A stretch of 20,386 nt of DNA. It comes from a virus. Within the stretch, counting starts at the first letter, position 1, and each line of letters begins with the position of its first letter. Of this stretch, positions 714 to 18,179 are shown one piece after another. The notes below the pieces were generated by a model. It was not told the DNA's origin, did no database searches, and worked only from the letters and a program-made list of their open reading frames with translations. Location of the stretch: the IMG/VR virus record IMGVR_UViG_3300021093_000455, positions 1-20,386 of that record; one strand, given 5' to 3'. The translations under genes and the position numbers were made by a program.

Positions 714-1436
714 TTAACTGAAAAAACTTGCGAGTCCCTCCAGCACAATTTCACTTTCAACTTTTGTATTTGGATTCTTAACTTTTAACGTATGAGAAAG
801 TTTGGGCATAGTCACAAAGAAAGTTTCAATTTCTTTAAACTGCTTTGTATTCAACTGATCTACAAATTCTTCTAGTTCTTTTTTACTGCAGTCAGAAGCA
901 CTCCAAGACTCTTCAGAATCATAAATCATATCAATACAAGAAGTAATCATACTAAGAGACTTATTTACATCACTAACATCTTCGTTGGTCTCAAAATTAT
1001 TTTCAACAAACTGATCTAATGAAGGATACCTCAACTTCATTGAAAGATTATCATCTAACTTGATTGTTTCTTTATGATCTTTGTTCTTCTGAACCTTAAT
1101 GTCATCAATGGCGATTTCAACTTGAACTGTTGTCTCACCATCATCTGGACATGTGACATTAACTTCGACGGTTTCACCTACAGACTTAGCACGAACATTT
1201 AAGAACAAGTATTCGATATCAAAAGTTGATAGATCAGAAACTTTGATTCCCTTAGTCAGAATACAATCAGAAAGAATTTGAACAATAGCATCAGTAATCT
1301 GTTTCATGTTCTCAGATTCTAGTGCCATGATGAGGATTTTTTCTTCTCTTACTAGAAAGGGGCGATACTTAATTTTCTTTCCAGTAGAAGGCAATTCCAA
1401 CTCATATGTTGGAGTATTAATCTTTGGTAAAGGCAT
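714..1436 (-). CDS. 26: gp26-like baseplate hub subunit / hub assembly protein
   Basis: This 240-aa protein has the N-terminus MPLPKINTPTYELELPSTGK followed by KIKYRPFLVREEKILIMALE, which I recognise as the conserved start of the T4 gp26 baseplate family (T4 gp26 is about 208 aa). gp26 is needed to build the baseplate hub, which caps the tail tube and carries the membrane-penetrating machinery. A CPDDGE segment near the middle (about residue 95) could be a small turn motif; no membrane segment or signal peptide is present. ATG at 1436 is the first start and is preceded by TAGG about 7 nt upstream. The gene follows the gp54-like gene by 31 nt and precedes the gp51-like gene by 2 nt, the T4 26-51 order. 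A late-promoter-like AATAAATA lies just upstream (1465-1472). Confidence 0.86.
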   Translation of the reverse strand: MPLPKINTPTYELELPSTGKKIKYRPFLVREEKILIMALESENMKQITDAIVQILSDCILTKGIKVSDLSTFDIEYLFLNVRAKSVGETVEVNVTCPDDGETTVQVEIAIDDIKVQKNKDHKETIKLDDNLSMKLRYPSLDQFVENNFETNEDVSDVNKSLSMITSCIDMIYDSEESWSASDCSKKELEEFVDQLNTKQFKEIETFFVTMPKLSHTLKVKNPNTKVESEIVLEGLASFFS

Positions 1437-1464: not shown

Positions 1465-1472
1465 TATTTATT
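1465..1472 (-). promoter_or_regulatory. Probable T4-type late promoter before gp26
   Basis: On the minus strand this reads AATAAATA, one base from the T4 late consensus TATAAATA and matching the NATAAATA form reported for cyanophages. It overlaps the TAA stop of the gp54-like gene and lies 29 nt upstream of the gp26 ATG, the right distance for a short late leader. Late genes in T4-like phages use such an extended -10 element with the gp55/gp33/gp45 system, and gp33 is encoded in this window. Assigned by motif and position only. Confidence 0.55.
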
Positions 1473-2316
1473 CACCTCCCTGAGGTAAATCAGATGGTCT
1501 TTTTATTTTACCTTGACGGGCAGCCCAATACAATTCATCTAAAGATGCTTGAGAGTTCCCCAAACTTCTTGATTTTGGAGGTCCTAAAAATCTTCCATTT
1601 TGAGTATCAAATTCTTCTGCCGAAGAATTTCCGTCTGAAACAACCCCTCCTGTTTCTCCTCGTTGAGCATTACCACCTGTTGAGGTTAATTTATTTTTAG
1701 TTGCAATATAACGATCAAAATTAAATGTGACTGTTACCTTTAATAATTCTGCTGGACCATAAGAGACTGGTATAGAAGTTAAACCCTTTGGAAAAGCATT
1801 TATGAAGTTATAAATTAATTCAGTATTGAATGATTTTTCAAATTTTGTAATTGTTAAATTATCAATCTTATAATGATCCGGAAATTGAAATCTTCTATAG
1901 TAATGTTTACCACCATTAACTTGAGATAGTTCTCCTGCACCAGAAATAAAATCCATCCACCCTTCAAAAAATCTTAATAACTCATAATTATCATCAACAT
2001 AAAAAGTCATGTCCATATCAGTGTAAAGACGAGTGTGAGCAAACTCTTGTGTTACGCCCATATAATTATCTTTTACCTCAGCAGTCGCATATGATGAAAC
2101 TGGAAGAGTAGCTTCTGAGCAAAAGAATCCTAGTTTACTGTTTACAAATGCAACGATACTAGCACCAACATCTTCTCTCTTATAAACTTTATCAAAATAG
2201 TCTTTTAGTGTTAGTGGAACTGGAATATTAACAAAATATTGATTCGTTTGAGCCAAATTGCCAATGAGGTATTTGGCCTCCTTCATACTAAGTGATCTAA
2301 GAAGGGAATTGGACAC
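1468..2316 (-). CDS. 54: gp54-like baseplate tail-tube initiator
   Basis: A 282-aa structural protein. The central part (about residues 100-210) has features I associate with the T4 tube-like fold family gp19/gp48/gp54: MTFYVDDNYELLRFFEGWMD, then a YRRFQFPDHY segment and ITKFEKS, ending in a strand reading LKVTVTFNFDRYI. In T4, gp54 and gp48 sit on top of the baseplate and start polymerisation of the gp19 tube. The C-terminal 65 residues are Ser/Gly/Gln-rich and probably flexible. Translation likely starts at GTG 2316 with AAGG upstream; an ATG ten codons in (MKEAKYL) is the alternative. It runs divergently from gp4, and a late-promoter motif lies about 34 nt upstream (2350-2357). gp54 is preferred over gp19 because of length and because the other tube-cap protein, gp48, is encoded nearby; the distinction is not certain. 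Confidence 0.7.
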   Translation of the reverse strand: MSNSLLRSLSMKEAKYLIGNLAQTNQYFVNIPVPLTLKDYFDKVYKREDVGASIVAFVNSKLGFFCSEATLPVSSYATAEVKDNYMGVTQEFAHTRLYTDMDMTFYVDDNYELLRFFEGWMDFISGAGELSQVNGGKHYYRRFQFPDHYKIDNLTITKFEKSFNTELIYNFINAFPKGLTSIPVSYGPAELLKVTVTFNFDRYIATKNKLTSTGGNAQRGETGGVVSDGNSSAEEFDTQNGRFLGPPKSRSLGNSQASLDELYWAARQGKIKRPSDLPQGGE

Positions 2317-2317
2317 T

Positions 2318-2325
2318 CTAAATAC
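2318..2325 (+). promoter_or_regulatory. Late promoter (CTAAATA) for the gp4-gp48 arm
   Basis: CTAAATAC on the plus strand, 32 nt before the gp4 ATG. CTAAATA/NATAAATA is the late-promoter motif described for T4-like cyanophages. It pairs exactly with GTATTTAG at 2350-2357, so the intergenic region carries one late -10 element facing each way. Confidence 0.62.
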
Positions 2326-2349
2326 CTTATACGATTCTTATATTATTAA

Positions 2350-2357
2350 GTATTTAG
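2350..2357 (-). promoter_or_regulatory. Late promoter (CTAAATA) for the gp54-gp26-gp51 arm
   Basis: Reads CTAAATAC on the minus strand and ends 33 nt before the GTG start of the gp54-like gene. It directly abuts the gp4 ATG (2358) on the other strand. It is the mirror copy of 2318-2325; together they form a back-to-back late promoter for the two structural arms. Confidence 0.62.
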
Positions 2358-2795
2358 ATGTCATATAAGGGAAAATTTCAACCATCATATCCAAAAAAAT
2401 ACAAGGGTGACCCAACAAACATAATTTATCGTTCTCTATGGGAGCGTAAGTTTATGGTGTATTGTGACACGAACCAGAACATCCTTGAGTGGGGTAGTGA
2501 AGAAATCGCTCTTCCCTATCGTTCACCAATCGATAATAAAATTCACAGATACTTTCCCGACTTTTATATTAAAGTCCGAGAAGCAACTGGACAGATTAAG
2601 AAATACATTATTGAAATCAAACCCAAAAAGCAAACTGTTGAACCAAAAGTTCAAAAGAGAAAAACGAAAGGATATATTTACGAAGTCTACGAGTATGCCA
2701 AGAACCAGGCAAAGTGGAAAGCAGCACGAGAATTCTGTAAAGATAGATTATGGGAGTTCAAAGTTATTACAGAAGACGAACTAGGTATTAAGTAA
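2358..2795 (+). CDS. 4: gp4 head-completion protein (nuclease-like)
   Basis: A 145-aa protein close to the length of T4 gp4 (about 150 aa), which acts after packaging to prepare filled heads for tail joining. The sequence carries a TnsA/VSR-like PD-(D/E)XK pattern: RSLWERKF (Glu29), an ILEWGSEEIALPY strand, RYFPDFYI with Asp68, and YIIEIKPKK with Glu86 and Lys88. A basic C-terminal helix follows. Start is the ATG at 2358, right after the divergent late promoter; no clear Shine-Dalgarno site is seen. Its TAA overlaps the ATG of the next gene (TAATG), so the two are coupled. Placement beside baseplate genes is common in cyanomyoviruses. Confidence in gp4 is high; that it cuts DNA here is inferred from the motif. 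Confidence 0.87.
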   Translation: MSYKGKFQPSYPKKYKGDPTNIIYRSLWERKFMVYCDTNQNILEWGSEEIALPYRSPIDNKIHRYFPDFYIKVREATGQIKKYIIEIKPKKQTVEPKVQKRKTKGYIYEVYEYAKNQAKWKAAREFCKDRLWEFKVITEDELGIK

Positions 2796-3196
2796 TGCCA
2801 AGAAAGACTCTCAAACAAAGAAAAGAAAAATATCCAACAGAGAATCAATATAATCGCATTCGTTCTGTGATGGATAATCTCAATGGAAAAGAAAGTTCAA
2901 GTGATGTAATGAGTGAACTTAGAAGTGCTTTGACTGGAAGTGGTAAAGTTCCAAGTGCTGGGAAGTATTATGTCTTTGTTTATAATCCCAAGACACCAAA
3001 CATCACGTATGATCAGCACCCTCTAGTTGCGGTCACTGAAGTCTTTGATTGGGGATTTCGTGGTATTAACTATCATTGGGGAGAAGTTCGTCAATATACT
3101 TGGAATGAAGTTGCTGACCAACTATATGAGATCTACCCAGAAGAACTTGCTGATGCCAGAGAACTGCCAATTAAGAAACTGCGTCTAAATAGTTAA
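2795..3196 (+). CDS. Conserved T4-like cyanophage protein of unknown function
   Basis: A 133-aa protein coupled to gp4 by a TAATG overlap. The N-terminal 20 residues are very basic (MPRKTLKQRKEKY), followed by a Ser/Gly linker. From about residue 52 a compact beta-rich domain appears: YYVFVYNPKTP, YDQHPLVAVTEVF, WGFRGINYHWGE and a final helix. The YDxxPLV...GxxGxNYHxG pattern recalls small SH3-like barrel proteins in several marine phages, but no function is attached to it that I know. Lying between head completion and tail-tube cap genes, it is probably a minor virion or assembly protein. The last codons contain the late-promoter motif of the next gene (CTAAATA, 3185-3191). I do not assign a T4 number. 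Confidence 0.72.
   Translation: MPRKTLKQRKEKYPTENQYNRIRSVMDNLNGKESSSDVMSELRSALTGSGKVPSAGKYYVFVYNPKTPNITYDQHPLVAVTEVFDWGFRGINYHWGEVRQYTWNEVADQLYEIYPEELADARELPIKKLRLNS
3185..3191 (+). promoter_or_regulatory. Late promoter (CTAAATA) before gp48
   Basis: CTAAATA lies within the last codons of the preceding gene and 19 nt upstream of the gp48 ATG. A GTAGG ribosome site (3201-3205) lies between. Expected initiation about 6 nt downstream would give a short leader, as usual for T4-type late messages. Confidence 0.58.
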
Positions 3197-3210: not shown

Positions 3211-4188
3211 ATGCCAATTTATAGATATCCTTTCACAGAAATAAATGAAAACTCCGATTTTTTAAAGATTGAAATAGCTAAATATACAGCTAATAGTTTG
3301 ACACGAGAAAGCGGAACATCCACCCCTTCAGTAACGACTAGAACTCAAGGAGCTCAAGGAGTTCAGTCAACTATAAGTACTCTTAAAGCTGGAAAACCTT
3401 TCACAGTAAAAAAAAGGACAAACGCAACAGTAATCGATGATACAATATATTTACCAATACCTTCAAATATACAGGATGGAAATTCTGTAAAATATACAGA
3501 AGGAAGTCTTGATGGTTTAACTGCTGGTGCTTTGGGAGTTGTTTTAGATGCTTTCTATAATAAAGAAGATAATCCTGGCCAGGTTCTTCAAACAATGCTA
3601 AAAGAAGCTACAGATCTTGGATTAGATCCCGCTGCTCGACAGTATTTTTTAAATAATCTAGCGGCTAGTGCGGCAAACATGCCATTTGGTGGAAATTTAA
3701 CACCATCTCAGTTATTAGCAAGACAAACTGGGAATATTTTGAATCCAAATATGGAGTTATTATTTGATGGTGTTACTTTAAGGTCTTTTAAATTTTCTTT
3801 TAAATTAACACCAAGAAATGAAGGTGAAGCAAAGCAAGTAAAAAATATTATAAAAACACTAAAACAAAGTATGGCACCTGGAACTAGCAACTTAGGATTT
3901 AGTGGAGAAGCAAGCGGTATTAACGGATTATACTTATCAACTCCAAAAATATTTAAACTTAACTATATGAGAGGAAGTCGAAATCATCCGTTCTTACATA
4001 AGTTTAAAGAATGTTTTCTTACAGATATGTCTGTGAATTATACTGGTGAGGGGACATATGCTACTTATGGAGGAGCTGATGAAGATGGTGGTGGAACTCC
4101 AGTTTCTATGATTATGGATTTGTCATTTAAGGAACTTGAACCAATTTATGCTGGTGATTATAATGGATTAACAGGAGTAGGATTCTAA
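3211..4188 (+). CDS. 48: gp48-like baseplate tail-tube cap
   Basis: A 325-aa protein beginning MPIYRYPFTEINENSDFLKI, the start I recognise from cyanomyovirus gp48. gp48 binds the top of the baseplate with gp54 and begins tube polymerisation. Residues about 185-210 (LFDGVTLRSFKFSFKLTPRN) and the C-terminal stretch with FLTDMSVNYTGEGTYATY fit the beta-sandwich of tube-like proteins; this second motif is shared with other tube and cap proteins. Residues 25-90 are low-complexity Thr/Ser/Gln linker. It is preceded by GTAGG and a CTAAATA motif, and it ends 1 nt before gp53, so the two are co-translated. No odd features. Length is slightly shorter than T4 gp48 (364 aa). Confidence 0.82.
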   Translation: MPIYRYPFTEINENSDFLKIEIAKYTANSLTRESGTSTPSVTTRTQGAQGVQSTISTLKAGKPFTVKKRTNATVIDDTIYLPIPSNIQDGNSVKYTEGSLDGLTAGALGVVLDAFYNKEDNPGQVLQTMLKEATDLGLDPAARQYFLNNLAASAANMPFGGNLTPSQLLARQTGNILNPNMELLFDGVTLRSFKFSFKLTPRNEGEAKQVKNIIKTLKQSMAPGTSNLGFSGEASGINGLYLSTPKIFKLNYMRGSRNHPFLHKFKECFLTDMSVNYTGEGTYATYGGADEDGGGTPVSMIMDLSFKELEPIYAGDYNGLTGVGF

Positions 4189-4189
4189 A

Positions 4190-4837
4190 ATGGGATACTT
4201 TAGAGAACTTCCAAATTTACTTTATCCTTCTTATCTGTCTGATAAGAACTCATCTCTTAACTATATCGAGGTCAAAAATCTCTTCCGTAGAGTTAAATTA
4301 AGAGATGATCTTCAGAATGTTTTTACTATCTTCAATAAATATGAGATCCCAGAAGGATCAAGACCAGAACTTGTTGCCGAAGAATTTTATGGTGATGCCC
4401 AACTAGATTGGGTGGTCCTTCTAACCGCAGGAATTATCAATGTGCGAGATGAATGGCCATTGTCAGATCGAGATCTCTACAGATATTGCTACGAGAAATA
4501 TGATACTGATCTAAACGAAACTCGTCACTATGAAACCACTCAAGTAAAAGATTCGAATGGTCGTTTAATTCTTCCAGCAGGTAAAGTTGTTGATGGTAAT
4601 TTCACAATTCCAAATCCTGCTAATCCTTTACTAAGTCTAAATCCAGTTATTGGTATTAGTAACTATGAATATGAAGTTCGTAAGAATGATAAAAAGAGAA
4701 GCATTTATCTATTAAAACCATCATATCTCCAACAGTTCTTAAATGATATGAGACAAATTATGATTTATGATGAGTCTTCTCAATACATCAACGAAAAGTA
4801 TATTCAAACTGAGAATCTAAACATCACTCTTCCATAA
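4190..4837 (+). CDS. 53: gp53 baseplate wedge protein
   Basis: A 215-aa protein of the T4 gp53 baseplate wedge family. Diagnostic segments are MGYFRELPNLLYPS, LRDDLQNVFTIFNKYEIPEG and the block EEFYGDAQLDWVVLLTAGII followed by NVRDEWPLS at about residues 64-93. gp53 is the last protein to join a wedge and promotes association of six wedges around the hub. The C-terminal half (about 160-205) contains NYEYEVRKNDKKRSIYLLKP, resembling the small C-terminal module of the family. The gene starts 1 nt after gp48, and its 3' end overlaps the 3' end of the minus-strand Mom-like gene by 21 nt, so no intergenic terminator is possible there. Confidence 0.9.
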   Translation: MGYFRELPNLLYPSYLSDKNSSLNYIEVKNLFRRVKLRDDLQNVFTIFNKYEIPEGSRPELVAEEFYGDAQLDWVVLLTAGIINVRDEWPLSDRDLYRYCYEKYDTDLNETRHYETTQVKDSNGRLILPAGKVVDGNFTIPNPANPLLSLNPVIGISNYEYEVRKNDKKRSIYLLKPSYLQQFLNDMRQIMIYDESSQYINEKYIQTENLNITLP

Positions 4838-6737: not shown

Positions 6738-7326
6738 TGACTATAGACCGTAGGATTTTTTTGAATTGGAACACATCAATATTTAGAAATGGATTATACT
6801 TCTTAATTTTCAGACTGACGGTTTCCCACACCGGGTCCAGAAGTTTCTTATCAAAATCTGCGGAGAAACGGAATATTTTGTCGTAGATTGTTAATGTTTC
6901 TAAGGACAACTGCCCGCTTAGAAACTTTTTGAGAACTGGTGGATGTCCTTTGGAACAGTTGAATAGATTCTCTAATTCGCTCTCCAAGAATAATTCGTTG
7001 CTTTGCTCTTTGAACAAGTAAGTCAAACTCTGTTGGCGTTTTTTCCACTCGGAATAAACTTGCTCTCCGCCATTTATTAAAGAACCAATCCATAAATTTT
7101 GTGGGTTATCGGATGCTACAAAGTTTGATACTAGAAAATCTACGACTTCTTTATCGTTATACTTGCGACTTGTCTTTTCGAACCAGTATTTGTCCTTGCG
7201 TTTATTAAAAGAAGTTACACTAGCACGAGTCTTCGCACCATATTTAAAGAAGTCGTATTTTGGATTTGTGAAATGATTTTTGAGTGACAGATAATGTTGA
7301 TAAGTTTCAAAGGGTGTCACGGTCAT
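6730..7326 (-). CDS. 59: gp59 helicase loader
   Basis: Starting at ATG 7326 the protein has 198 residues (T4 gp59 has 217). It begins MTVTPFETYQHYLSLKNHF, then YDFFKYGAKTRASVTSFNKR, KDKYWFEKTSRKY, and FLVSNFVASDNPQNLWIGSL, matching the T4 gp59 pattern of YDVIKYNW...KRRDKYFF...KL and SNLVAN...WIGD. gp59 binds gp32-coated forks and loads the gp41 helicase, switching origin to recombination-dependent replication. An upstream in-frame ATG at 7383 would add 19 residues but lies deep in gp33; the 7326 ATG overlaps the gp33 TGA as ATGA, the junction style used throughout this operon. The order 33-59-32 is as in T4, with a DUF1825-like gene added between 59 and 32. Confidence 0.86.
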   Translation of the reverse strand: MTVTPFETYQHYLSLKNHFTNPKYDFFKYGAKTRASVTSFNKRKDKYWFEKTSRKYNDKEVVDFLVSNFVASDNPQNLWIGSLINGGEQVYSEWKKRQQSLTYLFKEQSNELFLESELENLFNCSKGHPPVLKKFLSGQLSLETLTIYDKIFRFSADFDKKLLDPVWETVSLKIKKYNPFLNIDVFQFKKILRSIVNE

Positions 7327-7583
7327 AGAGGCAGTTTTGCTTTCGAAGTTCGCTTCATAAAGTTCAAACGGGTTGCATCCCATTTGAGTCTCTCTTTTAG
7401 AGGTTTTGAAATGAGTTTTGTTACTGATTCTACTTCAAGACTATTGATTTCGCAATAGTGACAAATAGCATCAATATAGTTGAAGTTTTCTTCGGCAACA
7501 ATCTTTTCAATTTCCAAAGCAAACTTGGAAGGTGTTAAAAACTTGCTTTCTATTGCCTGTTCTAATTCCTTATTTGGTTCCAT
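7323..7583 (-). CDS. 33: gp33 late-transcription co-activator
   Basis: From ATG 7583 the protein has 86 residues: MEPNKELEQAIESKFLTPSK, then FALEIEKIVAEENFNYIDAI, CHYCEINSLEVESVTKLISK and a basic end. This matches cyanophage gp33, the counterpart of T4 gp33 (112 aa), with its FxxxIEKxVxExxxxYxDAxxxxCExNxxExxxxxKLI core. gp33 bridges the RNA polymerase flap and the gp45 sliding clamp to activate late promoters and represses unassisted transcription. The frame is open further upstream to 7688, but those codons overlap the nuclease gene; the chosen start overlaps the nuclease end by only 14 nt. Its presence supports reading the CTAAATA motifs as late promoters. Confidence 0.83.
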   Translation of the reverse strand: MEPNKELEQAIESKFLTPSKFALEIEKIVAEENFNYIDAICHYCEINSLEVESVTKLISKPLKERLKWDATRLNFMKRTSKAKLPL

Positions 7584-8250
7584 AGAGTTCCAGTTTATCT
7601 CTAACAAACTTTCTAACGTATTGGGTGAGAAGTTTGATGTACTTTGATTTGTCTCTTTCTTCATAGACGACGCATTCTCCATTTTCACAAGCCATAATGA
7701 TTACAAGTTTTTTAACTGATATTCCAGTCAGTTCGTATAGCATACAACCATATGCCATACATTGAACAAAATAGTGTTCGATCCACTCGCGTGGTTTTGG
7801 TTTTTTAGAAGTCTTAAAGTCGATTATTGCTAACTCGCCGTCATATTCAGCGATACAGTCAACAGTCCCAGCAATGCCTAGTTGCTTACTATATAGGGAC
7901 CCTTCAAGGGCGTAAATATTATTTATACGCTTTAAGTCCGTTTTTGCAATCTTAAATAAGAAATCCGACATTGGTTGAACCTTTGGCAAACTCTCATTCT
8001 TCAGATGATGCTCTACCAATGTGTGCATATCGGTTCCACGACTTGTTGCCGCTTTTGTAATGCGATCTGCCTCTTCATCACCAACTTTCTTACGCCAATT
8101 AATAAAAATCTCTTTATTAAAATGACTGGTAATAGAAGTAATAGAGACCAACTTTAGAAGTTGGTCTTCATCTGGAACTTTATAATAACGAACACCATCT
8201 ATAGTCTCCCTTTCAAGTTCGGGGAGAGTCACATCAACATGATTGAACAT
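7570..8250 (-). CDS. PD-(D/E)XK (RecB/Cas4-like) exonuclease
   Basis: A 226-aa nuclease with the ordered motifs of the RecB-like branch: RGTDMHTLVEHHL (His76), GIAGTVDCIAEYDGELAIID with Asp131 and Asp144, FKTSKKPK with Lys146, and QCMAYGCML (Gln163 and Tyr167). Together these form the metal site and the downstream QxxxY helix seen in Cas4 and lambda-type exonucleases, so DNA end processing is likely. In T4 the gene upstream of 33-59-32 includes rnh, the 5' nuclease that removes primers; here a nuclease of a different fold occupies a similar slot. It starts at ATG 8250 overlapping the phoH TAA (TAATG) and overlaps gp33 by 14 nt. All expected catalytic residues appear present. Confidence 0.84.
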   Translation of the reverse strand: MFNHVDVTLPELERETIDGVRYYKVPDEDQLLKLVSITSITSHFNKEIFINWRKKVGDEEADRITKAATSRGTDMHTLVEHHLKNESLPKVQPMSDFLFKIAKTDLKRINNIYALEGSLYSKQLGIAGTVDCIAEYDGELAIIDFKTSKKPKPREWIEHYFVQCMAYGCMLYELTGISVKKLVIIMACENGECVVYEERDKSKYIKLLTQYVRKFVRDKLELYGTK

Positions 8251-9277: not shown

Positions 9278-9284
9278 TATTTAG
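9278..9284 (-). promoter_or_regulatory. Late-promoter-like CTAAATA after thyX
   Basis: CTAAATA on the minus strand contains the thyX stop codon and lies 21 nt upstream of the 82-aa gene. TATATT nearby could also serve as a -10 box. The genes downstream are replication functions, so late expression would be unexpected; the motif may provide read-through late expression of phoH or may be chance. Confidence 0.35.
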
Positions 9285-9916
9285 ACCCACTCAAGGGCTT
9301 CCGCGACTGATGGAAACTGCTCCTTAAACACATCTTTGCAAGCAAGTGCAATGTCCATGTGCTCTTGTTGAGTACCATTAGCAGAACGAAGAGTGATATA
9401 GTGAATCCAACTGCGGCAAGATCCACTCATATAAATGCGTGTAGGCGTTGCTAGAGGCAGTACAAAACGAGCACACTCTTTTGCCACCCCATGAGATAGA
9501 AGTTCCTTGTAGAGTTGCATAGAGTGTGCAAAATGATCCTGAATCTTACTCTGTAAAGTCAGTTTTTCATATTCGCCAATATCATCAATAGAGTTTTGAC
9601 GATTCTTGGTATCTTGACGACGAAGATCGGGTACAGGAATATAATCACTCAAAAGAGATGAATCAGCATAACGTTGTGAAAACTCTTGATAGGTGAAAGA
9701 ACGATGACGCAAAATCTGTGCTGCAATGCCACGATTCGTTTCAATCTCAAGAGTCATAAAAGACTGCTCAAAAACAGACCAATGATTATGCTTAATACAA
9801 TAAGCAAGCAACTTGGCATAGTTTTCGTTGTCCTGATTCGCAGGATTACTAACTCTCGCAACAAATGCCATTGTTTGTTCTGCATCGGGAGTTACACTAA
9901 TCAGTTTTACACTCAT
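9281..9916 (-). CDS. thyX: FAD-dependent thymidylate synthase ThyX
   Basis: A 211-aa ThyX, which methylates dUMP to dTMP using methylene-tetrahydrofolate and reduced FAD and so supplies thymidine for phage replication. The signature RHRSFTYQEFSQRY at 70-83 contains Arg70-His71-Arg72, Ser80 and Arg82, the ThyX motif RHRxxSxxExSxRY with minor change. HNHWSVFEQ (43-51) and the C-terminal SGSCRSWIHYITLRSANGTQ with QQEHMDIA also match. Length is typical (about 210-230). ATG 9916 overlaps the TGA of the small coiled-coil gene (ATGA). Unlike the fused or flavin-independent ThyA of T4 (td), this is the form usual in cyanophages and many cyanobacteria. Confidence 0.95.
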   Translation of the reverse strand: MSVKLISVTPDAEQTMAFVARVSNPANQDNENYAKLLAYCIKHNHWSVFEQSFMTLEIETNRGIAAQILRHRSFTYQEFSQRYADSSLLSDYIPVPDLRRQDTKNRQNSIDDIGEYEKLTLQSKIQDHFAHSMQLYKELLSHGVAKECARFVLPLATPTRIYMSGSCRSWIHYITLRSANGTQQEHMDIALACKDVFKEQFPSVAEALEWV

Positions 9917-10080
9917 TTCTTTCCAAATCCTTTTGATGTTTTTGCTTCCAATTCTGCGAGTTCTTCTTTAACAACTCGCAATTGAGATTTCATTTCAATG
10001 ATCTTTTCGGTCGTATAAAGATGCTCTTGCTTTACAAGACGTTCAAGTAGTTTTACAAGTTTTCTTGCTCTATTAATCAT
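9913..10080 (-). CDS. Small coiled-coil protein (55 aa) upstream of thyX
   Basis: A 55-aa, strongly charged and almost entirely helical protein, starting MINRARKLVKLLERLVKQEH and ending in a KTSKGFGKK tail. The Leu/Val spacing (LVKLLERLV, then LRVVKEELAELEAK) suggests a short two-helix coiled coil. Similar small proteins occur near thyX in other cyanomyoviruses as far as I recall, with no known function. Its TGA overlaps the thyX ATG, and its start lies inside the last 8 nt of the HNH endonuclease gene. Confidence 0.68.
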   Translation of the reverse strand: MINRARKLVKLLERLVKQEHLYTTEKIIEMKSQLRVVKEELAELEAKTSKGFGKK

Positions 10081-10585
10081 TTAACATTCCAATAATAACA
10101 TAGTTTTTGTGATGCTGCCTATCACCTTTGTACGTTTTGTGAAGATTTTGTTTTGTAAGATTATTGTCCAAACAAAATTTTGTTAGATTATTAACTCTTA
10201 CAATTTTTCCATCTGGTTTTTTAATCAACCATTTTTTTGAATTATCTGGAATTATGAAGACATTATTTCTAATGGCGTCTTCAATGTTTTCTTGCATTGT
10301 TCCCCATTTTAAATTTGATAACGAATTGTTATCTTTATTATCATCCAAATGCCTAACAACCTCATGATTGTTAGGGTTGGGAATGAATGCTAGGGCAAGA
10401 AGTTGATGCAATCCTTTATGTTTTCTTTCGCCATTAATATTATATAATGTAAAAGAATAATATCCCCTTTTATTTTTATGCCCAGAAATATATTTTTTAA
10501 GTTTAGTTGAATAAACTCTTCCATCTGAGTATATTTTGTAATTGGGATATTCTTTAAGAATTTTACAATCCGTCTCCATCATCAT
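10073..10585 (-). mobile_element. HNH homing endonuclease (NUMOD4-HNH_3 type), free-standing
   Basis: A 170-aa protein with three modules. Residues 9-34 (KEYPNYKIYSDGRVYSTK) form a NUMOD4-type DNA-binding start. The HNH core covers about 60-96: HQLLALAFIPNP with His60, then VVRHLDDNKDNNSLSNLKWG with His79 and the paired Asn residues. A C-terminal module (about 118-164) with IKKPDGKIVRVNNLTKFCLD and KTYKGDRQHHKNY is a NUMOD1-like helix-turn-helix. Such free-standing enzymes cut unoccupied sites and spread by repair. Its first ATGs lie within the end of the preceding gene (23-nt overlap), and its stop overlaps the next start by 8 nt, showing precise insertion between two conserved small genes. 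Composition is more AT-rich than its neighbours. Confidence 0.88.
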
Positions 10586-13947: not shown

Positions 13948-14481
13948 CTATTTAACATCCATATCCCAGGAAGTAATCATACGAAGTTTGTTTGTTTTCA
14001 TGGCATCGGCATAATGTATCGTTGAACTTGGCCAAGTATACATTACACCTTCTTTGGGATTTGGAATAGAAGCAAGTTGAGTTGTATCATTTACTGGATC
14101 ATTCCATGGTCCAATAAACTTAGTCGGTTCATGGACTTTATCATTATATTCAAGGTAAAGTAATCCAGTATATCCAATCGAACGATGGTTATGTGGGCAA
14201 TGATTTTCGTTCCTTTTTGTATATTTTAAGGTCCAGATATCAGTCACTCTTAGGTGCTTTAGTTCTGCTTCTGTCTTAAACTGTTCTAGTTCCTCTGCAA
14301 AAATATTTTCAAAATCAAGGGCATATCTATTCTTTTTAGAATGGCGATCTGTTTGAAAAGTATTTGCTCCGTAATAATCAAATTTGTTTTGATTTATCCT
14401 AGACAATAGTGCTTTCTTTTTACGATCCCATTCATTGACTTCATAAGAAAAAAGAGGAACATAAAATAGAATATTAATCAT
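13948..14481 (-). CDS. 2OG-Fe(II) oxygenase-like protein 1 (177 aa)
   Basis: A 177-aa protein with a double-stranded beta-helix pattern. The first metal segment is NENHCPHNHRSIGYTGLLYL, with His97 and His99 in an HxH rather than HxD arrangement. The second is MYTWPSSTIHYADA with His156, and Arg167 (KLRMITSWDM) would hold 2-oxoglutarate. The layout resembles the TIGR02466-like branch seen in phages. Such enzymes use oxygen and 2-oxoglutarate to hydroxylate a substrate; the target is unknown. It overlaps oxygenase 2 as ATGA. HxH may still bind iron or may mark a shifted activity. Confidence 0.7.
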   Translation of the reverse strand: MINILFYVPLFSYEVNEWDRKKKALLSRINQNKFDYYGANTFQTDRHSKKNRYALDFENIFAEELEQFKTEAELKHLRVTDIWTLKYTKRNENHCPHNHRSIGYTGLLYLEYNDKVHEPTKFIGPWNDPVNDTTQLASIPNPKEGVMYTWPSSTIHYADAMKTNKLRMITSWDMDVK

Positions 14482-15188
14482 CTGTCATTAGCATGATGAA
14501 CAAATGGTCCTTGTGCGTTTACATAATGAAGGAAGATTTGGTGATGGTAGGTGTCATCTTCTTTCTTACGGAATGTGCGCCACAGGTTTTCCAATTTACT
14601 ATACTTGGATTCTAGTGGATCACGCCAGTGCTCACGCTCACATCCTTTATAGACAGCAGCATCACCATTCTTCATAAGAACATAAGACTCGCTACCATCA
14701 GGACGCTCAAACCAAATTGGCCAAGGATTGGAAGAGTTAGTGCTAATTTGAAGAGTCACACTGACTTCACACGCAGGGCGATCACTATGACGCTTCAGTT
14801 GCTGACCGACATAATAGAAACGGTCATAGAAGTAGGTAGGAAGCAAGTCAATACCAAGACGCTTCTCTACTTCCTTACGAACAAGATAGTGAAGTTCCTT
14901 ATACATTGGAACATTATATCGTGCCAGTGATCCATTTACCTGCTTCTCATCTGGGACATAAGTAAACTTATCCTTACGGATATAATTCATTTGTCCAGTA
15001 ATACGATTACCATTCTCGTCCAGTGGAGGAGCACAGTAAAGATTTTCTGGGTCGGCAATGAGTCCAGGCATGAAAAGATATCCATTCTTCTCAAAGGACT
15101 CATTCTTCGTCATGTTAGTGGTGGTTTGGGTAGCACAACGCTGATACCCATCTTCATAGACACCACCAGTTGATACAAACTCTCTCAT
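14478..15188 (-). CDS. 2OG-Fe(II) oxygenase-like protein 2 (236 aa)
   Basis: From ATG 15188 (GGAGG 10 nt upstream; a TTG further upstream is unlikely) the protein has 236 residues. The metal motif is LKRHSDRPACEVSVTLQIST with His134 and Asp136; the distal part MKNGDAAVYKGCEREHWRDP supplies His187 and a nearby Arg. A third segment, HHQIFLHYVNAQGPFVHHAN, is conserved in this cyanophage subfamily. The N-terminal 50 residues (FEKNGYLFMPGL) resemble the start of phytanoyl-type oxygenases. Likely a hydroxylase of unknown substrate. It lies 15 nt after oxygenase 3 and overlaps oxygenase 1 by 4 nt. Confidence 0.84.
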   Translation of the reverse strand: MREFVSTGGVYEDGYQRCATQTTTNMTKNESFEKNGYLFMPGLIADPENLYCAPPLDENGNRITGQMNYIRKDKFTYVPDEKQVNGSLARYNVPMYKELHYLVRKEVEKRLGIDLLPTYFYDRFYYVGQQLKRHSDRPACEVSVTLQISTNSSNPWPIWFERPDGSESYVLMKNGDAAVYKGCEREHWRDPLESKYSKLENLWRTFRKKEDDTYHHQIFLHYVNAQGPFVHHANDR

Positions 15189-15203
15189 AATACTTACCTC
15201 CAA

Positions 15204-15821
15204 CTATCGCCATCTCGGGCCAACCACCCAACCTACAAGACTCTTACGCAAACCAGATTTCACCTTACGAACTCGGTGTGGAGTGCGAGAATCAAATAGC
15301 ATTAGAGTTCCGCGTTGCTTTGGAGCAAAATAAGATTTACCACTATTATCAAGGAACTGAACTTCTCCACCAGTATAATCATTAGGATCGGACAGTTGAA
15401 GAGCAAAAGAAAGTTTTCTTATATACTCACCATTCAAAGTGATTTGATCTTGAGCTATATTTGTTCCAGATCCAACAACTAATTGTGGTTTATAAAAGGT
15501 GTCAAGATCACCGTCTTTGTGCCAATTATAAAACTGCCCTTCACCATATTGTGTGTACTGAACACTACCACCATCAATATCAGTCAGATCGTAGCAGAAG
15601 TTCTCACGGTTTACCTTATCAATATAATACCACAACCAACCACCGATCCAGTGCGAAGTAGGAATCCAAGCATTCTTACTATTGCGGATAACCTTATCCA
15701 CTTGCGCTCCCATGATCTGGGAGTCTGCCGCAATAGAGTCGAATGTTTGAAGGTCTTTCTCTACGATTTCCACAATTTCAGTTGGCAAATTAGTCATGTG
15801 CCAACAAGTTAAAAAAGCCAT
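15204..15821 (-). CDS. PKHD-type 2OG-Fe(II) oxygenase (oxygenase 3)
   Basis: A 205-aa enzyme with the full prolyl/lysyl-hydroxylase-like site: QYTQYGEGQFYNWHKDGD gives His101 and Asp103, KLSFALQLSDPNDYTGGEVQ is the following strand, RGTLMLFDSRTPHRVRKV gives His182, and SGLRKSLVGWVVGP gives Arg192. This is the YbiX/PKHD pattern. It should hydroxylate protein or small-molecule substrates using 2-oxoglutarate. It is the first gene after a perfect-consensus promoter (15846-15874), so it and oxygenases 2 and 1 probably form an early unit. All catalytic residues are present. Confidence 0.92.
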   Translation of the reverse strand: MAFLTCWHMTNLPTEIVEIVEKDLQTFDSIAADSQIMGAQVDKVIRNSKNAWIPTSHWIGGWLWYYIDKVNRENFCYDLTDIDGGSVQYTQYGEGQFYNWHKDGDLDTFYKPQLVVGSGTNIAQDQITLNGEYIRKLSFALQLSDPNDYTGGEVQFLDNSGKSYFAPKQRGTLMLFDSRTPHRVRKVKSGLRKSLVGWVVGPRWR

Positions 15822-15845
15822 AATTGAATAATATTCCTCAGTCTG

Positions 15846-15874
15846 ATTATATATGAAAGTATCAAAGATGTCAA
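15846..15874 (-). promoter_or_regulatory. Perfect-consensus sigma70 promoter within the oxygenase cluster
   Basis: TTGACA (15869-15874 reversed) and TATAAT (15846-15851 reversed) on the minus strand are exactly 17 nt apart. It overlaps the stop codon of the 168-aa gene and lies 25 nt upstream of oxygenase 3. An ideal host-type promoter such as this should fire early without phage factors. Confidence 0.82.
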
Positions 15875-16377
15875 ATTCTCATGTCAATAAAAACTTCTCC
15901 CCTTACCAATATTTCATCAATTTCATCCTTGACTCTAAGGTGATCGATGATATCTTTTTCTCTAGCAACATTGACAAGAGATTTATTAACGTGATATACC
16001 CTATCAATAATTGATTCTACATTTTCATTTGGATTCCAATGCTTATAAACCATTTCACATCTTTGTTTGAAATAATTTACTGTCTTTTTTGTGTCCAGAA
16101 CGTATGTTTCATCAGATACTTCTAGAAAATCATTTAGGGAAACAACGTTACTTATTTCTTTATATTTGTTTTCGCACCATCTGCATCCAAGAAAAAAATC
16201 GTCCTCTGATACACCAAAAAATCTTAATCTATCAATAAATGTTTTATTAATTTCAAAGTACGTATCAATTTCCTGATCAGAATATACAACAAATGTGCAT
16301 ATATTAGGAGAGATGTATTTAATTTGATAGGCAATCATCCAACAGAGTGCTGGATTTCCAAAAATAACATACTTCAT
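15871..16377 (-). CDS. Unknown protein, weakly flavin-halogenase-like N-terminus (168 aa)
   Basis: From ATG 16377 the protein has 168 residues. It starts MKYVIFGNPALCWMIAYQIK, resembling the opening of tryptophan-halogenase-like flavoproteins (VIVGGGTAGWMAA) but with the Gly-rich dinucleotide loop lost. FFGVSEDDFFLGCRWCENKY at about 54-73 recalls the halogenase segment LGIDEADF...FKLGI. The second half (about 90-168) is helical and charged. At 168 residues it is about one third of a halogenase, so a functional flavin enzyme is unlikely; a shrunken relative or unrelated protein is possible. The frame extends 13 codons further upstream to 16416 into oxygenase 4. No ribosome site is evident. Function unknown. 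Confidence 0.55.
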   Translation of the reverse strand: MKYVIFGNPALCWMIAYQIKYISPNICTFVVYSDQEIDTYFEINKTFIDRLRFFGVSEDDFFLGCRWCENKYKEISNVVSLNDFLEVSDETYVLDTKKTVNYFKQRCEMVYKHWNPNENVESIIDRVYHVNKSLVNVAREKDIIDHLRVKDEIDEILVRGEVFIDMRI

Positions 16378-16388
16378 AATAGAATAAT

Positions 16389-16961
16389 TTAATCGTTTGG
16401 TCTGTAAATGAACCATCCAGTTGCTACATATTTAGTTTTTGTTTTTGATATCTGCCCGTAATGATTCCACATCCAATACGCAGGCCAAATAATTAAATTT
16501 CCTCTTTTTGCTCTTAAAGTTCTTCCTACTGTTGGAAATATAGTTCCACCATCTTTAACATCATTTAGGTAAAACATCCATACTAAAATTCTATTAGAAC
16601 TTTGTATAGAAGACGATTCGCAGTGTTTGTAGAAATAACCCTCACCCGGTTCATATTTTTGAAGATTCCAAGTAAAATCTATCACATATTCCTGAACACA
16701 ATCCAATCCATTCCTATAGTATTTTTTGTCATATAATCTGGCATAATGATCGAGTTTTGGTTTGATGATAGATGATGCCCAGTCTGTTGGATCATAATAA
16801 TCGAACCCACAATCTATAGACTTTTTTTTACCATTAGATATTCCACCACCTGTCCTACCAGGCATTTTTGGCAGTTTATTATTTCTCTCAAAATAATATA
16901 TTAAATTTTCTGTCTCTTCCTTTGAAAGGGCATTTGGATATATTTCAATAAAATCTTTCAT
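16389..16961 (-). CDS. P4H-like 2OG-Fe(II) oxygenase with HxE site (oxygenase 4)
   Basis: A 190-aa protein with the prolyl-4-hydroxylase fold. NLQKYEPGEGYFYKHCESSS contains His113 and Glu115, an HxE in place of HxD. ILVWMFYLNDVKDGGTIFPT is a typical core strand and GGT turn, RAKRGNLIIWPAYWMWNHYG supplies His167, and Lys177 (KTKYVATGWF) sits where P4H enzymes bind 2-oxoglutarate through Lys. The Lys is as in true prolyl hydroxylases. It overlaps oxygenase 5 by 17 nt. The start MKDFIEIYPNALSKEE is normal for the family. Substrate unknown; a Pro/Gly-rich fibre protein is encoded nearby. Confidence 0.85.
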   Translation of the reverse strand: MKDFIEIYPNALSKEETENLIYYFERNNKLPKMPGRTGGGISNGKKKSIDCGFDYYDPTDWASSIIKPKLDHYARLYDKKYYRNGLDCVQEYVIDFTWNLQKYEPGEGYFYKHCESSSIQSSNRILVWMFYLNDVKDGGTIFPTVGRTLRAKRGNLIIWPAYWMWNHYGQISKTKTKYVATGWFIYRPND

Positions 16962-17580
16962 GCTTAAAATTTAAGTATCCAGAACTAACATTATATTCAC
17001 CAGTCAGAACATAATTAAAGGCGATACAATATCTCTCTTCATCTGATTCAGATGTTTCCACTTCATGCAAAAGATGTGAGGGAAACAAAAACAAGTCTCC
17101 TGGTTCAGGTTTTTTATACCAAGTTTTTGAATTTAAGATGTTATTATCCTTTACAAAGTTTTGAATATTTATTGTAGATGTACAATATGTAGGAATCATG
17201 GGTGGTATTGAAAATTCAACTCCTCCGCTCTTCTCGTCACACTGAAGATACAAAATTCCACTGAACATAGAGTTCGAGTGCAAATGCTGCTGTGATTTAT
17301 TGCCTTTAAGATGCTTACATGTCCAAGAACTAGTATGAGTTAGTTTTAAAACTTCACTAACTTGAAGTTCAGTGTATATAAATTTTTTAAGTTCTTGTTC
17401 AACACATTCTCTTACTTCAAAAAAGTAAGAATTGTCAAAGATAAATTGATTTTTACTTATCCATGCCCAAGAACCCTCTTCATATTCTAATTTTTTTACA
17501 TTAGCAATAGTCCTTGATAGATCTACACTCAGTTTTTCATAGTATAGAGGAATGGAGAATAAAGGAAATACGACACTCAT
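16945..17580 (-). CDS. 2OG-Fe(II) oxygenase-like protein 5 (TIGR02466-like)
   Basis: A 211-aa protein. KGNKSQQHLHSNSMFSGILY carries His99 and His101 (HxH, with the NSxxSGILYL pattern of the TIGR02466-like group). EPGDLFLFPSHLLHEVETSE carries His172, and Arg183 (EERYCIAFNYVLTGEY) would bind the co-substrate. The N-terminus VFPLFSIPLYYEKL is typical of this group. Same HxH arrangement as oxygenase 1, so the two probably share an ancestor. ATG 17580 overlaps the oxygenase 6 TGA (ATGA). Confidence 0.82.
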   Translation of the reverse strand: MSVVFPLFSIPLYYEKLSVDLSRTIANVKKLEYEEGSWAWISKNQFIFDNSYFFEVRECVEQELKKFIYTELQVSEVLKLTHTSSWTCKHLKGNKSQQHLHSNSMFSGILYLQCDEKSGGVEFSIPPMIPTYCTSTINIQNFVKDNNILNSKTWYKKPEPGDLFLFPSHLLHEVETSESDEERYCIAFNYVLTGEYNVSSGYLNFKHERFY

Positions 17581-18179
17581 ACTTTGACAAAGTTAAAATT
17601 AATCACGCATCTCATCTCACCTGATGGTACACTATCATACCATTTTGTATTTGTCAATGAACTTCTTCTCTTTGGAATCTCTGCTCCATGAAGCATACTA
17701 CCATCAAAAATAACACATCTTCCTTGCTTTGGTTTTACACTTTTGCCATTTTTGAATAGTGTCTTAGCATCATGATCGACAACATAATAAATCATTACAA
17801 CATGTTCATCATTTTCATTGTCTTGGTGCCATGGTGTATGCCTAAACTCAAACTTGCTTGCCTGGGGTGGTATCAGGTTTGCTTGAACTCTATCTAAAAT
17901 ATATCCTTCTTTGGGACCATATGCCATTAGAGGGATAATAAAATTATCTTTAATAAGATCAAAATAAGGCGATTTTATTTCACCCCTGTCAACAAATTTA
18001 TGTCCAAACCAATGGATTTCTTTTGATGTAAGTGGGTTGTACTTTCTTATTTTTTCCCTTCCATCATTCTCATCAAATACTGTTCCATACTTATAGTACC
18101 AGGGAAAAGTATCTTTAAACAAAGAATTTATCACCTCTCTTTGACAGAGTGGTGGAATCATAGTATCACTGACATTCAT
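17577..18179 (-). CDS. 2OG-Fe(II) oxygenase-like protein 6 (200 aa)
   Basis: A 200-aa oxygenase with an intact site: FRHTPWHQDNENDEHVVMIY gives His118 and Asp120, QGRCVIFDGSMLHGAEIP gives His164, and Arg190 (GEMRCVINFNFVKV) is placed for 2-oxoglutarate. The core strand DHDAKTLFKNGKSVKPKQGR is typical of small phage and cyanobacterial hydroxylases. It starts 6 nt after the fibre-associated gene, with no terminator between, so it is likely co-transcribed with the fibre genes. It overlaps oxygenase 5 by 4 nt. Confidence 0.87.
   Translation of the reverse strand: MNVSDTMIPPLCQREVINSLFKDTFPWYYKYGTVFDENDGREKIRKYNPLTSKEIHWFGHKFVDRGEIKSPYFDLIKDNFIIPLMAYGPKEGYILDRVQANLIPPQASKFEFRHTPWHQDNENDEHVVMIYYVVDHDAKTLFKNGKSVKPKQGRCVIFDGSMLHGAEIPKRRSSLTNTKWYDSVPSGEMRCVINFNFVKV

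Follow-up and report, generated by a model that had tools for sequence, protein, structure and literature searches.

How are two sets of virion genes that diverge from a common junction, with start codons only 41 nt apart on opposite strands, each supplied with a promoter? The question is raised by a 20,386-nt stretch of DNA (here called the window), a piece of about 20 kb from a marine T4-like genome of the cyanophage type, whose closest named records include S-SKS1, S-SRM01, and P-SSM2. Inspection of the sequence between a gp54-like gene (minus strand) and gp4 (plus strand) reveals an inverted repeat in which CTAAATAC is present at 2318–2325 on the plus strand and again at 2350–2357 on the minus strand, with 24 nt (2326–2349) between the two copies. 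The preliminary description of this DNA had reported a perfect 8-mer repeat with this spacer between genes that it named gp54-like and gp4. The repeat is present as described, the perfect match being one base longer than the 8-mer (TCTAAATAC, 2317–2325 and 2350–2358), and both gene names hold by PHROG profile. The features needed for what follows are these:

714–1436, minus strand: baseplate hub protein, gp26-like, second in the left arm (phrog_150)
1468–2316, minus strand: tail tube family protein, gp54-like, heading the left arm from a GTG start (phrog_45, E 1e-37)
2317–2324, plus strand: putative late promoter −10 box TCTAAATA of the gp4 arm (from the sequence; placement at −13 to −6 after the excerpted PMC1524935)
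2325–2328, minus strand: AAGG, Shine–Dalgarno-like, of gp54 (from the sequence)
2326–2349, no strand: 24-nt spacer between the 8-mers, with both predicted start sites inside; its length varies in relatives
2330 (within about 2 nt), plus strand: predicted transcription start of the gp4 arm (−12 to −6 rule, from the same excerpt)
2345 (within about 2 nt), minus strand: predicted transcription start of the gp54 arm (same rule)
2351–2358, minus strand: putative late promoter −10 box TCTAAATA of the gp54 arm (from the sequence)
2358–2795, plus strand: head completion/head closure protein gp4, heading the right arm (phrog_218, E 1e-60)
2795–3196, plus strand: gp2-like (DNA end protector family) protein (phrog_429)
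3185–3191, plus strand: additional CTAAATA box, 26 nt ahead of the start of gp48 and at the end of the gp2-like gene (from the sequence)
3211–4188, plus strand: gp48 baseplate tail tube cap (phrog_230)
4190–4837, plus strand: gp53 baseplate wedge subunit (phrog_232)
7323–7688, minus strand: ORF for gp33, late promoter coactivator (phrog_254, E 9e-29, residues 45–121)

The two exact copies of CTAAATAC at the junction are the only ones in the window, for which dinucleotide shuffles predict 0.89 copies on average. A facing pair of 8-mers was found in none of 400 shuffled windows, and a facing pair of 7-mers 12–32 nt apart in two of 400. Taken singly, CTAAATA occurs seven times in the window as compared to 4.7 expected, with no clear over-representation. 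The 8-mers lie 32 nt from the ATG of gp4 (2358) and 33 nt from the GTG of gp54 (2316), in agreement with the earlier figure of about 33 nt for each. The left box reads rightward into gp4 and the right box reads leftward into gp54, that is, the boxes face each other, and each adjoins the start codon of the opposite gene. The gp4-arm box occupies exactly the 8 nt between the AAGG and the GTG of gp54, and the gp54-arm box has one base in common with the ATG of gp4. Immediately past the forward box, CCT or TCC is found in 34 of the 78 distinct window-like loci that have the pair.

T4 late promoters have long been a classic object of study, and lists of T4 promoters presumably include sites for genes 53 and 4. 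The T4 box is TATAAATA at −13 to −6 and that of Aeh1 is CTAAATA from −12 (PMC1524935, in excerpt), whereas the form published for S-PM2 is NATAAATA (PMC2984593, in excerpt). T4 late promoters, the CTAAATA form, and overlapping promoters are thus known already. Upstream signals were counted in the 60 nt before predicted genes, obtained by simple ORF picking, of P-SSM2, S-SRM01, and S-SKS1. CTAAATA was found 44 times in the sense and six times in the antisense orientation (2.9 expected for each), and ATAAATA 124 and six times (6.6 expected); thus, both are sense-strand upstream signals. Sense CTAAATA in the three genomes lies mostly 20–50 nt before starts, a range that includes the gp4 and gp54 boxes, and the antisense copies at starts are largely those of the gp4 junction itself. 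No σ70-type promoter or terminator overlaps the site of the facing boxes, and either one was rejected as an explanation of the junction; the single σ70-like match between 2150 and 2550 (2264–2235) is inside gp54, a number below the shuffled count.

The junction has the properties of T4-type late promoters: a variant of the box on the sense strand, virion genes downstream, and the distance of a late promoter. As in T4, the cyanophages, and Aeh1, there is an 8-bp −10-type box with no −35 element, AT-rich sequence downstream, and late virion genes; the difference is that here two boxes face over 40 bp, each at the other's start codon. The best interpretation of the two motifs is that they are −10 boxes of T4-type late promoters, and the late-promoter identity proposed previously is borne out by the motif, by its position relative to both genes, and by conservation in relatives. 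The sequence likewise supports the proposal that the promoters serve both divergent structural arms. Given the CTAAATA box at 3185–3191 before gp48, the plus-strand arm may possess two late promoters. The true start of gp33 is probably some 40 codons inside its ORF; genes for gp55 and gp45 are absent from the 20-kb fragment.

To what extent is the arrangement kept in relatives? Locus sets were drawn from several scans (80 of 597, 80 of 600, and 80 of 282 confirmed loci, with 9, 41, and 17 from others), the first set comprising 80 environmental loci and three named records and the extension using gp4 of T4, S-RIM12, Melnitz-2, ACG-2014f, and Vibrio K352 as queries. The total of 318 loci, including 11 named records, became 311 on removal of four with short upstream sequence and three with no usable start; some contigs were present twice from different scans, and removal of copies left 216 distinct upstreams. 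Both boxes were present in 77 of the 81 loci of the first set with enough upstream sequence. Among all loci listed, a facing pair was found just upstream of gp4 in 265 of 311 (186 of 216 distinct), as compared to 45 of 43,200 shuffled versions of the same upstreams. When the loci listed were sorted by nearest gp4 query, the pair was present in 77/77 S-RIM12-like, 9/9 T4-like, 74/86 Melnitz-like, 97/110 window-like, 8/10 ACG-like, and 0/19 K352-like loci. T4 itself carries a facing pair, between gp53 and gp4. Columns free of motif selection show the right box, just before gp4, to be the best-conserved part of the leader among window-like and S-RIM12-like loci; information content calculated on motif-selected loci is circular and was set aside in favor of these unfiltered columns. 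Conservation of the symmetric element had been proposed as a check, and its outcome is divided: most relatives keep the facing boxes, but not the exact match between the arms or the 24-nt spacing.

Searches of whole records gave a similar picture. The pattern CTAAATA-N12..32-TATTTAG occurs once in six of the seven records tested, and S-SKS1, P-SSM2, and S-SRM01, the three complete named genomes, each have a single CTAAATA-type facing pair, always between gp54 and gp4. The shorter TAAATA-N3..30-TATTTA occurs once in S-RIM12, MC09, and ACG-2014f, adjoining gp4; as two overlapping copies at gp4 in S-RIM44; twice in Melnitz-2, once at gp4; twice in K352, away from gp4; and not at all in S-T4. Control counts for this pattern were 0–11 across records, and T4 has six matches (one at gp4) versus 11 in its reversed control. 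The shorter pattern is thus unspecific in AT-rich T4, and the T4 case rests on position and on the nine of nine T4-type loci.

Of the 46 loci scored as misses, four (L002, L026, L104, and L306) still have the pair, 0.3–0.5 kb upstream of gp4 and separated from it by inserted sequence. In S-SKS1 (L002) an ORF between the pair and gp4 (3842–4180) starts with gp4's own first residues (MSYKG) and then runs into unrelated sequence that resembles a homing endonuclease by eye; in L026, L306, and L104 additional sequence likewise lies between the promoter pair and gp4. Judging from these loci, the inserted sequence seems to have captured gp4's late promoter. In the Ackermann-like/Vibrio K352-like loci L100 and L345–L354, TATTTAGG is kept for the gp48 side and the gp4 side has only TAATTA or TTAAATA; either the late consensus of these phages differs or their junction is one-sided.

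Other exceptions bear on the possibility that only one of the boxes is a working late promoter and that the other is a relic or a by-product of start-codon context. L038, L042, and S-T4 keep the gp4-side box, with the partner-side box missing or unclear and the gene order unchanged, and several loci of the Vibrio K352/Ackermann-like group keep the partner-side box with no good gp4-side box. We nevertheless consider a single working promoter very unlikely: the two boxes occur together in 186 of the 216 distinct upstreams, across different partner genes, and in the window both genes begin opposite transcription units from a 41-nt gap that has no σ70-type promoter.

Indeed, the facing boxes persist while the partner gene and the gene order vary (gp54 with gp4, gp48 with gp4, and gp53 with gp4). 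Among the loci listed, the pair is present in 80 of 87 with the order of the window (gp54 and gp26 to the left; gp4, gp48, and gp53 to the right), in 158 of 193 with gp48 and gp53 to the left of gp4, in eight of nine with gp54 and gp48 to the left (the sole miss has the pair behind an insert), and in nine of nine of the T4 type, with gp53 to the left and gp4, gp2, and gp3 to the right. Ten of 13 loci without an assignable gene order also have it. Thus gp4, frequently accompanied by the gp2-like gene, is the leading gene of one arm or the other (gp54 or gp48–gp53), and the pair remains at the head. On a gp4 tree built from few alignment columns, four changes are needed to separate "gp4 with the gp48 arm" from the rest, and a test of one clade on that tree did not reject a single origin (p-AU 0.669). 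In light of this value and the few columns, repeated arm switching by gp4 was dropped and our claim is limited to the presence of the pair in different gene orders. Sullivan et al. reported that cyanophages differ from other T4-likes by a large inversion (PMC3037559), an account that in its excerpted portions does not name the gp4 junction.

The position of each box at the opposite start codon suggests a second alternative, namely that TATTTAG(A) is the sense-strand translation-start context of each gene and that its resemblance to a promoter is coincidental. In the first set the right box overlaps the gp4 start by 1–3 nt in 77 of 77 pairs, and with a spacer of 15–28 nt the boxes are pinned to the start of the opposite gene and not to that of their own. 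A general start context is, however, at odds with the rarity of antisense CTAAATA upstream of genes in the three genomes (six versus 44 sense), and of the five antisense copies within about 10 nt of a start at least four are at the gp4 junction. Moreover, a distance of 5–18 nt separates the partner-side box from the gp4 start in T4-like loci and in most Melnitz-like ones, with a Shine–Dalgarno sequence between box and start in five of five T4-like and 19 of 38 Melnitz-like distinct loci. The alternative was largely rejected on the sense and antisense counts, and we regard it as highly improbable.

Action of the repeat through its symmetry, as a palindromic operator, a cruciform, or an RNA hairpin, is exceedingly improbable and was rejected, as fixed spacing and matched half-sites were not found: although RNA from 2317–2358 can fold with 12 outer pairs (−6.4 kcal/mol, z −2.3), the spacer of 7–31 nt across relatives (7–15 in T4-likes, 12–28 in window-likes, and 8–31 in Melnitz-likes) exceeds the tolerance of a dimer with fixed half-sites, a C in one arm against an A in the other at −12 disrupts pairing in 83 of the 186 distinct pairs, and the predicted plus-strand start lies downstream of the left arm, so that initiated mRNAs would have one arm only. 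The variable spacing and unequal arms argue, rather, for two independent, sterically competing promoters. As judged by these comparisons, the symmetry is a by-product of the same signal occurring twice and is not itself what is conserved. The earlier notion of one symmetric element is not supported, in that relatives differ widely in the match between the arms and in the spacing, and the boxes would act as separate promoters.

Thus, the gp54 and gp4 arms very probably have between them two T4-type late promoters, separate and facing, within about 40 bp. Each element would consist of nothing more than a −10-type box recognized by the gp55 holoenzyme, the plus-strand box (2317–2324) driving gp4, the gp2-like gene, gp48, and gp53 and the minus-strand box (2351–2358) driving gp54 and gp26. 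Initiation dependent on gp55, gp33, and gp45 would occur near 2330 and 2345, respectively, giving leaders of about 28 and 29 nt, and the box of each promoter would sit within the other gene's leader, at its start codon. The predicted +1 base is T on both strands, and hence the actual starts may be one or two bases off. Since the predicted starts cross, the two mRNAs would have about 16 complementary 5′ bases in common. The promoters had been described as back-to-back; in fact the motifs point at each other and the predicted transcripts cross, as they do in 181 of the 186 distinct pairs. By motif orientation and spacing alone, these are overlapping convergent promoters.

The suggestion that the polymerase sites overlap is supported geometrically. 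The size of the polymerase footprint is the basis for expecting both mutual exclusion and overlap of polymerase bodies. With the boxes about 33 bp apart, center to center, a polymerase at either promoter would cover the start site of the opposite one, and binding at the two gp55-type promoters, which would compete for the same stretch, would therefore be mutually exclusive. Only one of the two virion gene sets could probably be started at the junction at any time, and a polymerase leaving one promoter would have to traverse the other. According to the excerpted PMC7892883 the melted region of the T4 late complex extends from −12 to +2, which would place the bubbles at about 2318–2331 and 2344–2357; the polymerase bodies would overlap though the bubbles would not.

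The junction may be compared with two known systems. In the bacterial bidirectional promoters of Warman, Grainger, and colleagues (PMC12825309, in excerpt) one short stretch likewise gives two divergent mRNAs, opposing polymerases are unable to bind together, and competition matters once the promoters are strong. Those promoters, however, share a −10 element and have diverging starts 18, 10, or 23 bp apart, whereas the late pair has separate boxes with crossing predicted starts, and we rejected the assignment to that class. The pR–pL pair of phage 186, a lysis–lysogeny switch (PMC7498355, in excerpt), similarly consists of face-to-face promoters that fire through each other; unlike it, the late pair belongs to one late class, with near-complete overlap.

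Economy probably accounts for the layout: with facing boxes, two late promoters and two ribosome sites can be packed into 31–50 nt, the gap seen in named records where the pair stands directly between annotated starts. A back-to-back pair in a relative needs 63 nt. This true back-to-back late pair is located in S-SKS1 (HQ633071.1, about 54332–54396), where the boxes, about 2 nt apart, precede the starts of their own genes by 30 and 31 nt.

We also note several other features of the window. A gene for a Mom-family DNA modification protein (PF25680; 4817–5416, minus strand) overlaps the end of gp53 and lies between gp53 and gp32, a position at which P-SSM2 and S-SKS1 have no annotated gene. An HNH endonuclease gene (phrog_59; 10073–10585, minus strand) is located upstream of an ORF (9281–9916) that resembles thyX by eye. 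Five of the seven small ORFs in a run at 13948–18179 (minus strand) match 2OG-Fe(II) oxygenase Pfam models, three of them above the curated cut-off.

Finally, we consider what the junction means for the T4-like phages. Searches of an open-licence library, which includes few subscription papers, yielded no description of facing late boxes conserved at gp4 throughout their lineages. The crossed pair precedes gp4 in T4, methylophages, and cyanophages despite changes of partner gene, and in many cyanophages one box or even both may go unnoticed when late-promoter searches start from TATAAAT alone (PMC3037559 and PMC9004378, as excerpted). The T4 sliding clamp activates a late promoter only in one loading orientation, set by the broken strand (PMC2988020, in excerpt). 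The junction is a natural template for asking whether two clamp-dependent promoters on the same DNA are mutually exclusive and whether the orientation of the clamp selects one of them. It is conceivable, if unlikely, that the junction is a replication-direction switch in which clamp orientation decides which structural arm fires. If so, fork direction and the lagging strand would select the arm by way of clamp orientation, and the element would partition late transcription between two virion gene sets according to replication. Its two-sidedness would also let gp4 switch arms in evolution with no arm losing its promoter.
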